IMG/VR virus record: IMGVR_UViG_3300028883_000070
Coordinates: 1-45,943 of that record
Reading direction: 5' to 3' (one strand)
Source of the DNA: a virus
Length of the DNA stretch: 45,943 nt
Part shown: in pieces, positions 4,173 through 27,958 of the stretch
How the letters are laid out: each line of letters opens with the position of its first letter
How positions within the stretch are numbered: position 1 is the stretch's first letter
Program-made: the position numbers and the translations under genes
The notes under the pieces: generated by a model
Told to the model about the DNA's origin: nothing
Database searches by the model: none
What the model saw: only the letters and a program-made list of their open reading frames with translations

Positions 4173-4502
4173 ATGGCGCGTACTATTGAAGTATGGGTAG
4201 ACGAAAAAGAAGTTGACATGGTGGAAGGTGAAACCATTACTTACGCTGTGGAGTTCAAGGGCGCGGTTTCGGTGAGTAGTCCCGGCGCGACCGTGTACCG
4301 TAGCGGTACAGATGTTACCAGTACCGTGATGCCGTCCGGTTCACATACCGCAAGTGCGAACGTGGTTACACTGAAGCCTCTTACGGCCCAGGCAGGGGAC
4401 GGCGGACAAGAATACGTTGTCGCTGTAAGCGCAACAGTGGACGGCAACAGCGAGATCCGCAAGTTCCAGGTGAATGTGCATAAGGCAAGCAAAGCCTTAT
4501 GA
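4173..4502 (+). CDS. Small Ig-like/beta-sandwich tail protein
   Basis: 109 residues, starting one base after the preceding stop and overlapping the next gene by ATGA. It is almost entirely alternating beta strands (VEGETITYAVEFKGAVSVSS, then VTLKPLTAQAGDGG). The pattern resembles the N-terminal domain of baseplate or fibre-attachment proteins with an immunoglobulin-like fold. No catalytic residues are evident. The context is a tail or fibre operon, and the role is probably structural. Confidence 0.6.
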   Translation: MARTIEVWVDEKEVDMVEGETITYAVEFKGAVSVSSPGATVYRSGTDVTSTVMPSGSHTASANVVTLKPLTAQAGDGGQEYVVAVSATVDGNSEIRKFQVNVHKASKAL

Positions 4503-10786: not shown

Positions 10787-10791
10787 GTGTT

Positions 10792-10816
10792 AACTATTCG
10801 GAATTTCCGAATAGTT
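10792..10816. promoter_or_regulatory. Inverted repeat, terminator or operator
   Basis: AACTATTCGG and CCGAATAGTT flank AATTT, and the sequence after it is T-rich (GTTATTTCTATTTG), so it can act as a terminator for the preceding genes. A second copy with the same design (AACTATCCGG, five bases, CCGGACAGTT) lies at 10889-10913 with one mismatch. The pair may be operators for the same protein. Confidence 0.6.
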
Positions 10817-10862
10817 GTTATTTCTATTTGTTCAGGATAGTATACACATTTTGTCTATTATT

Positions 10863-11003: not shown

Positions 11004-11031
11004 TTGACTTTTGTTCCAAAATCCTTATACT
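11004..11031 (+). promoter_or_regulatory. Sigma70-type promoter for early operon
   Basis: TTGACT, 16 bases, then TATACT. The expected start is near 11038, giving a leader of about 55 bases before the ribosome binding site of the gene at 11092. It is one of the best promoter matches in the window and sits directly after the palindrome cluster. Confidence 0.75.
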
Positions 11032-11091: not shown

Positions 11092-11403
11092 ATGTCACAA
11101 AAAATTGCATTGGCCGAAGCGTTGTTGCGCCGCAAGGAATTGCAGAACAAGGTCGCCTCCGTTCGGCAGATCGACCAGGCTGTGTTCTATGAACATCGCG
11201 TCAAGCGCGTCCGCGTGGATGAGGGCATTGATGAGGTCGTGGCCGACATTCCGAAGTTGACTGCTTCTCAGGTCACACAGGAACTTGACTTTCATTCCCG
11301 CCAATTGCGCATGATCGATGCTGCAATTCAACGGGCGAATTGGGAAACCCAAGTTGAAATCCCCGATTCGGTGATGGCTGATTATAAGCCTCCCAAAGAA
11401 TAG
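11092..11403 (+). CDS. DIP1984-family (septicolysin-like) protein
   Basis: 103 residues from ATG 11092 with ACAAGGAG upstream. The opening IALAEALLRRKELQNKV and the closing helix RQLRMIDAAIQRANW match the DIP1984 family of small, mostly helical proteins. Its members occur in phages and Gram-positive genomes and were once annotated as septicolysin. The function is not established. It is the first gene after the strong promoter, and its stop codon lies five bases before the closing stem of the structured RNA, so the two are probably co-transcribed. Confidence 0.7.
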   Translation: MSQKIALAEALLRRKELQNKVASVRQIDQAVFYEHRVKRVRVDEGIDEVVADIPKLTASQVTQELDFHSRQLRMIDAAIQRANWETQVEIPDSVMADYKPPKE

Positions 11404-11408
11404 CCCCA

Positions 11409-11731
11409 ATTCGGCGGGCTGTAGGTGACAAAGAGGGCGTTGGATCGAAGGCCTGGCAGATGCCTGGAATCTAAGAGTAAACGTTTGCTCGTTGCCAACC
11501 CTGATCCTGGATTGGATCGCATGATTTCGCATATAGAGCGAGGGCAGCAGTCTCATAAACTGCATGGGTGCCGACCCGTTGATAATACGGAAGTAACTCC
11601 GATTGCCCTAATTAATAACGGTCAAAGATCCGATTTCCCGATTATTCCGAATGAGAGAACATCCAAAGTCCGAATAAGAGAAGCCCGAATGACCAGATCC
11701 GAGACTCTTTGTTACCCACAGCCCGCCGAAT
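11409..11731 (+). ncRNA. Large structured RNA (323 nt) closed by a 27-position stem
   Basis: The 5' segment 11409-11435 pairs with 11705-11731: 25 Watson-Crick pairs, one G-U and one A-C mismatch. Further in, GGATC (11442-11446) pairs with GATCC (11696-11700) and GGTCA (11620-11624) with TGACC (11690-11694). A cloverleaf-like domain lies at 11541-11609: AGGGCA pairs with TGCCCT around three hairpins, the first being a perfect 5-bp stem with a CTCATAA loop. GAGTAA/TTGCTC (11475-11490) forms another hairpin. No convincing protein is encoded here. It matches no RNA class I can name; orientation is assumed from neighbouring genes. Confidence 0.75.
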
Positions 11732-11759
11732 ATTCTTCTTACAGGAAAGGAAAAGGTTT

Positions 11760-13153: not shown

Positions 13154-14317
13154 ATGCCAATTAAAGGATTGATCGAACGTGCTTTACCGTTCCCGAAGAT
13201 CGGGGACATTCGCAAGGGTGAGAAGCGCAAGAATAGTAAGGGTGTTGAGTATCCTGTGGACCTGGATTATTTCAAGGTCACATTTGGGGCAGCCTATGAG
13301 GTTCAGGCAAAGAAATTCCTGGATGCCTACGGCGAGAAACCAGACAAGATCAATATCCTGCTTGCCAATAACAACATTGACCGGGTTTGGGATTACTGGC
13401 TGGAAGCCTACACCGCCAGCCGTCTGATCGCAAAATCTGACGGCGAGTTTATGAATTATTGGGTCCATTGGAAAACCGGAGAAGTGATCGCCAAAGCCGG
13501 GGACAACATGAAGTGCCCTGAAGATCTCGTAGTAGGCAAGGACAAAAACGGCAATCCGATCAAGATGAAGTATACCGGCCGGCTGAATGTGGTCATTCCA
13601 GAACTGAAGTATTTTGGTTTTCTCACCCTGCATACCACGTCCATTATTGACGTGAAAGCCATTACCGCACAGCTTTACGGCGTGGAAGAAATGGCGATCA
13701 AGTTGGGCGTTGAATTGGGGCGGATACCCTTGACCATGTTGCGGGCAAAGCAATCGGTATCGGTGCCGAAGGGCGATAGCAAGACCGAGCGCATGCGCGT
13801 TGACAAGTGGATGGTACAGATCGCTCCCCAGGCAGAATGGGCAGAAAAGGCCATTGGTGCCCTGCGTGATTCGGCTTTTCAGCTGATGCAGCCTGAAGAA
13901 ACCCTTGCATTGGGCAGCGGAGAGGCGGCCATGCTGGAAGAAAGCACGGACGCGCCGGATGCCTACGATGATGCGATTGACGCGGACTTTGTGCCGAATG
14001 AACCGCCAGGCTATGAAGATGATTTTCCCAAACCTGATTTCATCCCGGACGGAAAACAACCTGGTTTACTGCCAGCCGTGGAGAAATCACAAAAGCCAAA
14101 AGGATTGATGGCTTTGGATATGGCCAAGACCGCCAAAGGCAGCAAGGGCGATGTGTATTGGGAAACACCCACGGAAGAACTGCGCGGAAAGTTGATCGGG
14201 ATCACGCGGCTGCTTGCAAAGGACGATCTGAACGACAAGCAGCGTGAAGATGCGATGTTCAAGAAGGGTGCTATTGAGGCTATCATTTGGCACCGCGAGA
14301 ATGAGCAGGAGGAATAG
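13154..14317 (+). CDS. Gp3-like (recombination directionality factor family) protein
   Basis: 387 residues. The opening IKGLIERALPFPKIGDIRKG, then KGVEYPVDLDYFKV and a YGEKPDKINILL segment match the Gp3-like family named after the excision factor of the phiC31/phiBT1 serine-integrase phages. Residues about 100-190 form the conserved core; 245-320 are acidic and Pro-rich; the tail is helical. Many lytic phages carry this family without an integrase, and none is visible here. A role in replication, for example single-strand DNA handling, is more likely than excision. It is the largest gene of the early operon. Confidence 0.7.
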   Translation: MPIKGLIERALPFPKIGDIRKGEKRKNSKGVEYPVDLDYFKVTFGAAYEVQAKKFLDAYGEKPDKINILLANNNIDRVWDYWLEAYTASRLIAKSDGEFMNYWVHWKTGEVIAKAGDNMKCPEDLVVGKDKNGNPIKMKYTGRLNVVIPELKYFGFLTLHTTSIIDVKAITAQLYGVEEMAIKLGVELGRIPLTMLRAKQSVSVPKGDSKTERMRVDKWMVQIAPQAEWAEKAIGALRDSAFQLMQPEETLALGSGEAAMLEESTDAPDAYDDAIDADFVPNEPPGYEDDFPKPDFIPDGKQPGLLPAVEKSQKPKGLMALDMAKTAKGSKGDVYWETPTEELRGKLIGITRLLAKDDLNDKQREDAMFKKGAIEAIIWHRENEQEE

Positions 14318-19185: not shown

Positions 19186-20496
19186 TTATTCGATCTCACC
19201 CGTGATACATTCAACGGCCTTATATGCCTGGTTCGCTGCTTTGATAATCAACCCGCGGTCATCATTCAAGGCTTTAAGCCAGCTGTCAATATAGGCGGCG
19301 GTCCGTTCAACTTCCCGCTTTCCCTCAAACCCTACCATATTCAGCAGCATAGCTGAACCCAACTCCGCGGTTAACTCTTCCCTTGCGTATCCAGGCGATC
19401 CAACCCCGTGATTTTCTGGATACTCACGATCAAGCCGCTTTTTATGTCCCGTGCTATGCGTCAATTCGTGGAATAGTGTCCCGAAATAACCCGCGTCCGT
19501 TTTGAATTGATCCATTTCCGGCATGTGTACGCTATCCGTTGACGGCCGGTAAAACGCCCGGTCTTGTTTATAATGCCTGATCTTTGGGGGGGCTTGCATT
19601 TTAGCTACAACGGCCCCGGCCGCGTCCGTTGCGCTTGCGTCCGTGGTTTTGATCTTGCTTTCAATCATTGGGGGGATCTCAATCCCGTCCGCTTGCTCCA
19701 AATTAAACACCGTGTAGTAACGCATAAGGGGAATGTTGACTTCCAGCGTTTCCCCTTTGTCATTCACCGCGCCGCTTTTATCCTTAACCCGTACGATATT
19801 AAAATAAGTGATCTGCGTCCCGTGTTCGCCTTTGCGCACGTGCCCACCCTTGTTCTTGATCTGCTTAAACGTTGCCCAATAGGGACATTCAAAACCTTTT
19901 TGTGTCGCATCCCACTGCAGCAGCCATTGATTAAACCCGCGGTAAGGCTTTTTACTGGCAAGATTCCTGTGAAAGCCGGGACCGTTCCAGGGACGATCCC
20001 AGGGCACCGTGCCCGATTCCAGCGCGTCAATAACCTGCTGTGTGACAATTTCAACGACCCGTTTTTTACTCTTTTTTGTTTTGGTTCCTGTGTTGGTACT
20101 CATTTCCTTTTCCTTTTCTGGTTTGGTTTGTGCCTGGTCCTGGTTCAGTTGATCCCGGCCGGCCTGATCCTGATCCTGTTTAATCTGCTTTTCCCGCGTG
20201 CGCATATCTGGCAGCCATGAATAAAACTCATATACCATTTTAGGGACCTCATTCATTATTCCATTGTCCCGGCAAAGATAAAAGTGATCCTTTGGCTGTT
20301 TGAGCTTTTTATATTCCAGGTTCACTTTCTTTTTAGCGTATATTTGTACGCTATGGTGCCGGCTGGTAAAGGTGCCTGTGTCAACCATTTTGCGAATAGT
20401 TGACAATTCGCGGCCGAAATAGCAAGGCTCATTTAAAATCTTATTAAGCCGTGCCTGGTTCATTACTTCAGTTCTGGTCCTGGTTTGGGTATTCAT
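19186..20496 (-). CDS. ArdC-like antirestriction protein with extra N-terminal domain (possible two-start gene)
   Basis: 436 residues. From residue 132 on, it is ArdC-like: an N-terminal single-strand DNA-binding-type domain (IVTQQVIDALESGTVPWDRP, YRGFNQWLL, YWATFKQ, GEHGTQITYF), then a zinc-metallopeptidase-like domain with HELTHSTGH (343-351) and a downstream Glu in AREELTAELG. ArdC proteins protect incoming DNA from restriction. Residues 1-131 are an unrelated, unrecognised domain. Residue 132 is Met with its own AAAAGGAAAAGG site (start at 20103) and a leader like those of neighbouring genes. A 305-residue ArdC alone may therefore also be made. Confidence 0.8.
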   Translation of the reverse strand: MNTQTRTRTEVMNQARLNKILNEPCYFGRELSTIRKMVDTGTFTSRHHSVQIYAKKKVNLEYKKLKQPKDHFYLCRDNGIMNEVPKMVYEFYSWLPDMRTREKQIKQDQDQAGRDQLNQDQAQTKPEKEKEMSTNTGTKTKKSKKRVVEIVTQQVIDALESGTVPWDRPWNGPGFHRNLASKKPYRGFNQWLLQWDATQKGFECPYWATFKQIKNKGGHVRKGEHGTQITYFNIVRVKDKSGAVNDKGETLEVNIPLMRYYTVFNLEQADGIEIPPMIESKIKTTDASATDAAGAVVAKMQAPPKIRHYKQDRAFYRPSTDSVHMPEMDQFKTDAGYFGTLFHELTHSTGHKKRLDREYPENHGVGSPGYAREELTAELGSAMLLNMVGFEGKREVERTAAYIDSWLKALNDDRGLIIKAANQAYKAVECITGEIE

Positions 20497-27575: not shown

Positions 27576-27958
27576 CGGTGTTTCTTGATGAGGATCCCAG
27601 GTTAGATGGTCTTACGCCTGAACAAATTGTGTTCCAGTATATGCAGGAACAGGGCTACCCCTTTGTTCAGCAATACCAGTTTCACGATGGATCTTATCAG
27701 CCAAAGAAACGACAATGGAAGTTTGACTTTGCCGCGCCTGAATGGAAACTAGCTATTGAGATCGAAGGCGCGATATGGGTAAAGGGCCGGCATACCCGCG
27801 GTTCAGGATTTATTCGGGACTGCGTGAAATACAATACAGCCGCATTGATGGGATGGTGCGTTATCCGCATACCAACGGATTGGGTGCGGGATGGAAGCTA
27901 CAAAGACCTGGTTGACCAGGCCGTAGCGGTATACAGGAAAGGAAAAGGTTATGTATAA
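27572..27958 (+). CDS. PD-(D/E)XK endonuclease (phage resolvase-like)
   Basis: 128 residues. The core is KFDFAAPEWKLAIEIEGAIW (D52, E63, E65), then GRHTRGSGFIRDCVKYN and GWCVIRIP. This matches a common phage nuclease family related to Vsr/DUF559 and often annotated as Holliday-junction resolvase or endonuclease. All expected acidic residues and the HTRG motif are present. Likely role: resolving branched DNA in replication, recombination or packaging. It overlaps both neighbours. Confidence 0.8.
   Translation: MTVFLDEDPRLDGLTPEQIVFQYMQEQGYPFVQQYQFHDGSYQPKKRQWKFDFAAPEWKLAIEIEGAIWVKGRHTRGSGFIRDCVKYNTAALMGWCVIRIPTDWVRDGSYKDLVDQAVAVYRKGKGYV

Follow-up and report, generated by a model that had tools for sequence, protein, structure and literature searches.

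A phage-borne RNA family beside DUF6847 genes, with a covarying pseudoknot, self-complementary hairpin loops and an optional tRNA-like module

What is encoded by the 323 nt at positions 11409-11731 of virus record IMGVR_UViG_3300028883_000070, and does this region act as an RNA? The window, meaning the whole 45,943-base record analysed here, encodes a terminase gene and has a capsid-like match that falls slightly below the cut-off. A sequence-only reading of this DNA had proposed an unannotated structured RNA closed by a near-perfect 27-position stem. The stem (P1) is exactly as it described, with 25 Watson-Crick pairs, one G-U pair and one A-C mismatch, its two strands being separated by 269 bases (self-match of the window, E 7.8e-6). 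Rfam gives no family for the window, so the region is indeed unannotated. The comparison with shuffled controls that had been suggested as a check came out in favour of a structure, with a fold of -122.7 kcal/mol against a mean of -87.1 (sd 5) for 100 dinucleotide shuffles (z -7.1), none of which folded equally well. However, the reverse complement is equally stable (-125.3 kcal/mol), and much of the folding energy comes from the long P1 stem. Folding energy alone therefore cannot fix the strand of the RNA, and the case rests on comparison with relatives rather than on energy. Open reading frames cross the region on both strands. A protein-coding explanation was set aside and the region is likely non-coding, because conservation is seen in RNA helices and tRNA insertions; the conservation of the crossing frames themselves was not part of the evidence. 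Beyond what that reading had noticed, the locus has a DUF6847 neighbour gene, a self-complementary loop and a 7.7-nt beat, and its relatives carry tRNA modules. The features of the locus are collected in Table 1.

Table 1. Features of the RNA and of the adjoining gene, in order along the window
Feature	Position	Strand	Basis or remark
Terminator-like site, further upstream of the DUF6847 gene than the promoter-like site	10791-10817		Consensus scan
Promoter-like site TTGACT-16-TATACT, before the DUF6847 gene	11004-11031	+	Consensus scan; not evidence of function
DUF6847 (PF20935) gene, 103 aa, neighbour and presumed partner of the RNA	11092-11403	+	Pfam, E 3.4e-7, 30.7 bits
Long closing stem P1, 5' strand	11409-11435	+	Sequence; swap test in relatives
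P2, 5' strand, beyond an internal loop, partner 11696-11702	11440-11446	+	Computed pairing
H-type pseudoknot; S1 11449-11452 x 11462-11465, S2 11458-11461 x 11469-11472	11449-11472	+	S2 covariation in relatives
Palindromic hairpin, 6 bp and 4-nt loop ACGT, candidate self-kissing (dimerisation) element	11475-11490	+	Loop complementarity across relatives
Variable domain, limits approximate; no tRNA here	11496-11591	+	tRNA or permuted tRNA in 47/70 loci
Anticodon-arm-like hairpin GCAGT-CTCATAA-ACTGC in the variable domain	11547-11563	+	Hairpin scan
3' domain, no consensus pairing, GA-containing motif at a spacing of ~7.7 nt	11592-11696	+	HMM built without the window, E 3.7e-16
P2, 3' strand	11696-11702	+	Computed pairing
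P1, 3' strand of the closing stem	11705-11731	+	Sequence

The RNA lies directly behind a gene whose product passes the Pfam gathering cut-off for DUF6847 (30.7 vs 27 bits). A consensus scan of the window found four promoter-like and two terminator-like sites, against 1.6 and 1.1 in shuffles. Searches with DUF6847 proteins yielded one, then ten and then 88 viral loci, 80 of which were kept. In addition, 13 Vibrio phage records were matched, and the two that were examined are both Zobellviridae. The Vibrio phages PS32B.1 and 1.264.O each have the gene as well as the RNA. The locus set comprised 86 entries, with two contigs duplicated (L008 = L042 and L014 = L091), and 70 non-redundant loci under a 12-mer rule. 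The RNA was counted as present when its 5' or 3' domain was matched at E < 1e-3 by sequence-only HMMs seeded from the same loci. It lies no more than 900 nt downstream of the DUF6847 stop codon in 82 of the 86 entries (3' domain in 78, 5' domain in 57) and in 66 of the 70 non-redundant loci. The distance from the stop codon to the end of the 3' domain in relatives has a median of 320 nt and a range of 243-945 nt. L087 and L088 carry the 3' domain immediately upstream of the DUF6847 gene, L023 has both RNA domains further downstream of the gene, and L054 gives a marginal match. When loci were held out, a 3' HMM recovered 44 of 52 non-redundant loci, including the window.

Because the loci were gathered through DUF6847, this forward association is partly by design, and only the contigs found by RNA patterns alone test the link from the RNA side. 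The 5' domain pattern led to 11 viral contigs and the 3' domain pattern to four, and DUF6847 is encoded in all 15 of them (11 without near-duplicates). Thirteen of these contigs belonged to the protein-search list, and the presence of DUF6847 in L116 and L113 was read separately. Eleven of the 15 stem from one pattern of one sequence type; since the 5' domain pattern favours that type, the reverse test is strong but not universal. By sequence comparison, the RNA and DUF6847 occur together in every locus examined, whether the search began with the protein or with the RNA, bar the one marginal case. The three matches of an earlier RNA pattern (L016-L018) were rejected, as by eye they lack the architecture of the RNA.

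The search for relatives elsewhere gave only negative results. A peptide-pattern scan of one cellular genome per species (84,980) returned 118 stretches, none of them related, and one exact RNA pattern had no matches in cellular genomes. A search of plasmids with the L070 protein likewise found nothing, and the DUF6847 Pfam family was absent from all 14 control genomes. Against phage records, blastn returned only six chance pieces of 23-37 nt (E 1-4) with the window RNA and none with the L070 RNA. Inside the RNA of 32 relative entries (30 contigs), Rfam recognised only tRNA. One locus, L022, reached 15.6 bits for the Y RNA-like YrlA model, below the gathering score of 69 bits. No description of the RNA family was found in the literature, which was covered for open-licence papers only, and a description elsewhere is possible. 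Within that coverage, the RNA family is rated as categorically new, though GOLLD shares two broad traits with it.

The conservation of P1 was examined by exchanging partners among 44 RNAs in which both ends were anchored by sequence; the window was included, with its 5' end placed by hand. The flanks of each RNA pair with one another at a mean of -31.9 kcal/mol, compared with -15.9 kcal/mol for swapped partners. The RNA's own partner was top-ranked in 29 of the 44 and among the top three in 36, leaving eight outside the top three. With longer flanks, the values were -37.7 (own) and -21.8 kcal/mol (swapped), and only 13 of the 44 fell below the first percentile of swaps. Loss of the long stem in relatives would have refuted the original proposal, and the stem has instead been kept. 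A role of P1 as a terminator was considered and rejected, as TTTT within 60 nt occurs in 30 of 60 cases against 32% of shuffled ones, which is too weak a signal.

Covariation was assessed in the 5' domain. Its alignment holds 47 of the 70 sequences, picked by sequence HMM (E < 1e-3) with pairing disregarded, and the window, whose 5' domain is divergent (E 3.4), lies outside it. Alignment A4 was made without L043, and A5 additionally without L019, L020, L036 and L041. When the pseudoknot stem is counted together with the hairpin and the loop palindrome, 90.8% of cells are paired, against 52.6% in shuffles, and none of 500 shuffles scored as high. Cells changed on both sides number 225, compared with 78 when shuffled, and the covariation score is 0.909 against 0.214. 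Shifting the partner by one to three columns abolishes the signal. One of the five measures, a count of the pairs in which a double change occurs at all (13 vs 11.5), was reached by 37 of 500 shuffles, and kinship among the sequences may inflate the remaining four. The variants of S1 also change in step (AGGC/GCCT, AGGT/ACCT, AGGG/CCCT and AAGC/GCTT); these serve as illustration only, because the S1 parser selected for pairing. Comparison of relatives shows the RNA to be conserved through compensatory change, and with it the pseudoknot, the palindromic hairpin and the closing stem; the term 'structured RNA' is borne out by helices that covary in an alignment from which the window is absent. 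A second pseudoknot before the 3' domain was detected in 16 of 48 anchored loci and, by the same scan, is absent in the window; it is not claimed.

The 4-nt loop of the 16-nt hairpin is strictly self-complementary in 39 of the 47 sequences (GGCC in 14, GCGC in 8, CCGG in 6, GTAC in 4, TGCA in 3, TCGA in 2, and GATC and ACGT in one each) and not strictly so in the other eight. Complementarity at the loop pairs 59-62 and 60-61 amounts to 96.8%, across several types of pair; columns 60 and 61, adjacent bases that cannot pair with each other in a single hairpin, are complementary in 45 of 47, G-U included, while the pair types change. These two pairs cannot both form within one 4-nt loop, which points to pairing between two copies. 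The loop pattern thus implies a putative self-kissing element that would join RNA copies, for which there are no oligomer data. Four loop bases are few for a kissing complex, a difficulty that would be lifted by opening of the closing pair or by formation of an extended duplex.

The 3' domain is of a different kind. With the window left out, its HMM located the domain in the whole window at the position given in Table 1, whereas the best shuffled match reached only E 1.1. RNAalifold found no consensus pairs in an alignment of 43 sequences; these are the 45 references, which exclude weak and very long 3' domains, less L059 and L064, which were removed for long inserts. Autocorrelation peaks at 8, 15, 23, 30, 38 and 46 nt, and the spectrum peaks at 7.7 nt with a power of 2.79, compared with a maximum of 0.97 among 100 shuffles. 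In 51 control stretches taken further downstream the beat is absent (power 0.70 at 7.6 nt). The motif underlying the beat contains GA (CCGANT or nnGAAC) and occupies eleven positions in 41 phased sequences. The 3' domain of the window on its own peaks at 7.9 nt, a height reached by none of 500 shuffles; at exactly 7.6 nt, however, the power is no more than 1.51, and the alignment shows an insert roughly one beat long relative to most relatives. A long insert between beats is present in L048, L057, L064, L074, L086, L090 and L097 and appears by eye hairpin-like in several of them.

TRAP and other ring proteins bind single-stranded RNA that bears repeats at a spacing of about 5 nt. The 3' domain resembles such RNAs in its short, evenly spaced motif, repeated as eleven GA-containing beats on an unpaired strand. 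It differs in its spacing, and neither the identity of a protein nor a ring has been shown. The strand is read as being held by a repeating protein, which is an inference made without protein-binding data.

Between these two conserved domains lies a variable domain, which in many relatives holds a tRNA. Among the 70 loci, 34 contain a tRNA in normal order (called by ARAGORN or by arm motifs), 13 a permuted tRNA and four a T arm only; 16, including the window, have no recognisable tRNA, so that the tRNA module is optional. L023, L087 and L088 were not assessed for tRNA. ARAGORN alone calls a tRNA in 25 of the 70, and Rfam tRNA matches back many of the calls among the 32 entries scanned. The variable domains of L061, L079, L083 and L089 exceed 180 nt, and L061, L079 and L089 have two T arms, as if two tRNA-like domains, at least one of them permuted, stood in tandem.

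The permuted layout opens with the T arm and the 3' acceptor strand; after a linker of 0-26 nt come the 5' acceptor strand and then the D arm. With arms chosen regardless of pairing, the acceptor strands pair at 6.0 of 7 positions on average, against 3.3 when swapped between loci (a best-pairing choice gave 6.3). All seven positions pair in 7 of 13 loci but in only 1 of 156 swaps, and for the anticodon stem, taken at canonical offsets, pairing is complete in 7 of 13 loci and in 7 of 156 swaps. L061 and L079 contain several tRNA-like pieces and pair fully only under the best-pairing choice of arms. The arrangement is thus clear in about half of the 13 by a strict test and is likely in more. The anticodon stem of the permuted members forms the joint to the RNA body. 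In L029, L071 and L077, the acceptor stem appears by eye to be capped by GAGA or GAAA, which would leave no end to charge and argues against charging.

In permuted two-piece tmRNA, the tRNA part joins a pseudoknot-bearing body through its anticodon stem and the acceptor ends are permuted. The permuted members share this layout, in that a tRNA with a permuted acceptor end is joined to a pseudoknotted body through the anticodon stem. Unlike in tmRNA, the acceptor is capped in some members, and no tmRNA was found by ARAGORN (window and 12 relatives) or by Rfam (window and 32 entries). Permuted tRNA genes of algae and archaea also have the 3' half before the 5' half, with a linker joining the acceptor ends, according to the available part of the source (PMC3978253). 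The modules described here differ from those genes in lying within a larger phage RNA, the body of which replaces the anticodon loop.

No function follows from comparing the predicted structure of the DUF6847 protein. The model, which has modest confidence (pLDDT 68), consists of a helix, a beta hairpin and a second helix, and Foldseek returned nothing for it at E 0.001 or better. Its weak matches include 3kdq from C. diphtheriae (TM 0.59, E 0.31) and prefoldin subunits. 3kdq is also a solved relative (hmmsearch E 0.0012); cellular DUF6847 proteins thus exist but are more distant. The PHROGs match of the protein is merely a weak 'tail fiber'.

What, then, might the RNA do? We consider it probable, with considerable room for doubt, that this is a new phage non-coding RNA family that acts as an RNA-protein particle together with the adjacent DUF6847 protein, although binding of the RNA by DUF6847 is inferred from linkage only, without expression, oligomer or protein-binding data. 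The best reading is that of a dimeric or oligomeric particle displaying a tRNA-like module, its role in infection being inferred. Two or more RNA copies would join through their self-complementary hairpin loops, and the unpaired 3' strand would form a belt to which a repeating protein binds, DUF6847 being the simplest candidate. The module, whether tRNA-like or anticodon-arm-like, would be displayed as a shape, with no use as a translation adaptor, and may dock the particle to a host partner that binds tRNA, such as the ribosome, a tRNA enzyme or a defence that attacks tRNA. In the window member, the scaffold is retained and the module reduced to an anticodon-arm-like hairpin. The risk of inference rises from the loop-kissing homo-oligomer, through DUF6847 on the belt, to the tRNA fold as a docking or decoy shape. 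The most specific form of this reading is put forward only tentatively: an eleven-beat belt wraps a DUF6847 oligomer, two such units self-kiss, and arms shaped like tRNAs or anticodon arms, including circularly permuted tRNAs with sealed acceptor ends, capture or mislead a host machine that binds tRNA.

A narrower role, which we regard as unlikely but not negligible, is that of a decoy for anticodon nucleases. The module would bait tRNA-cutting enzymes of host defences or toxins, the scaffold and the protein would stabilise it, and the diversity of tRNA identities would reflect an arms race. Consistent with a decoy, anticodon-arm-like hairpins are present in 34 of 67 assessed variable domains, that of the window included, against 6.5% of shuffles, and hairpin loops ending in UAA are present in 46 of 67, against 14.7%. 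Furthermore, 16 of the 24 readable ARAGORN anticodons end in U36, possibly a bias to A-starting codons, and the U36 class of tRNAs carries t6A37. However, the UAA-ending loops are less special than they appear, as other endings are raised too (AAT in 38, TTA in 32, ATT in 29, GAA in 28 and AAA in 25), while CAA (14), TAG (10), TCA (9) and ACA (7) are nearer the shuffle level. The share of U36 could have been inherited, there being no background set, and no defence target is known. The permuted members, moreover, lose the anticodon loop, though some have a separate hairpin.

A particle built with DUF6847 must also be weighed against one made of RNA alone. The sequence-only reading had likened this RNA to GOLLD and ROOL in complexity while seeing no match in size or sequence; the likeness proves apt in style, and the absence of a match is upheld by the length of 323 nt and by Rfam, whose GOLLD and ROOL models found nothing in the window, in the 32 relative entries (30 contigs) or, at a permissive threshold, in L022. 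GOLLD is the closest precedent by analogy, yet no detectable relative. In the part of the source that was available, GOLLD has a variable linker that sometimes holds tRNAs, its half-shells meet via self-interacting kissing loops, and it is reported to bind ribosomes in pull-downs (PMC12286853). The present RNA is likewise phage-borne, holds tRNAs in the variable region of relatives though not of the window, and has loops that covariation across the 47 sequences shows to be self-complementary, from which self-kissing is inferred; the kissing loops of GOLLD belong to a closed 14-mer cage. It could be a cage of RNA alone, as in GOLLD or ROOL, DUF6847 merely being carried along on the same transcript, and the two traits in common with GOLLD speak for this. 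We nevertheless consider it improbable. The RNA is less than half the size of GOLLD, which is often over 800 nt. The constant DUF6847 neighbour, retained in all the contigs found through RNA patterns and still adjacent in L087 and L088, the unpaired 7.7-nt belt, which suggests a protein, and the permuted tRNAs set it apart.

ROOL is described in the same partly available source as a phage-borne, pseudoknotted homo-oligomer with kissing loops, exemplified by a 659-nt RNA; tRNA islands lie nearby, and no inside tRNA or protein partner is mentioned in that part of the text (PMC12286853). The present RNA is also phage-borne and pseudoknotted, but it is about half as long as that example, has no Rfam match, and has the DUF6847 neighbour and, in relatives, inside tRNAs.

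A type III-like toxin-antitoxin system, with DUF6847 as the toxin and the RNA as the antitoxin, would account for a two-gene unit of a protein and a pseudoknotted RNA. The label 'septicolysin', carried by cellular relatives of the family in annotations, also counts in its favour. This explanation is very improbable: neither Pfam nor PHROGs assigns the DUF6847 protein to a nuclease family, the RNA is a single large particle RNA rather than a tandem of small pseudoknots, and the protein gene precedes the RNA, with few exceptions among the loci. Finally, a dead or mobile element, either a remnant of a self-splicing intron or a functionless tRNA landing site, would explain why tRNAs of many identities occur at one place, but this already disfavoured reading is scarcely credible given the strong covariation, the fixed beat and the lack of any match to the Rfam group I and II intron models in the window, the 32 relative entries and, at a permissive threshold, L022.

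The RNA-protein particle with DUF6847 remains the preferred reading. The family joins the few elaborate phage RNAs whose function is unknown, and it comes with a neighbour protein that is constant. That tRNA modules and self-kissing loops go together both here and in GOLLD, between which no kinship is detectable, suggests that the two share a task. Such a task could be tested here in a smaller system with a protein handle, and the RNA family occurs in cultured Vibrio phages. Embedded permuted tRNAs with capped acceptor stems suggest that the tRNA fold may serve purely as a shape, and from the 7.7-nt beat a protein contact that repeats along the strand is to be expected.

Several other features were seen in these sequences. 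On the minus strand of the window, positions 19186-20496 encode ArdC N-terminal and zincin-like metallopeptidase domains, a gene of the anti-restriction type. A Gp3-like protein resembling recombination directionality factors (PF18897, E 1.5e-25) is encoded on the plus strand at 13154-14317. The L026 locus contains an int-alpA RNA (RF02996) at 4386-4452, outside the RNA described here. In the window, 19 bases at 27932-27950 are identical to those at about 11740-11758, directly after the RNA, where the ribosome-binding region of the next small gene is likely to lie.
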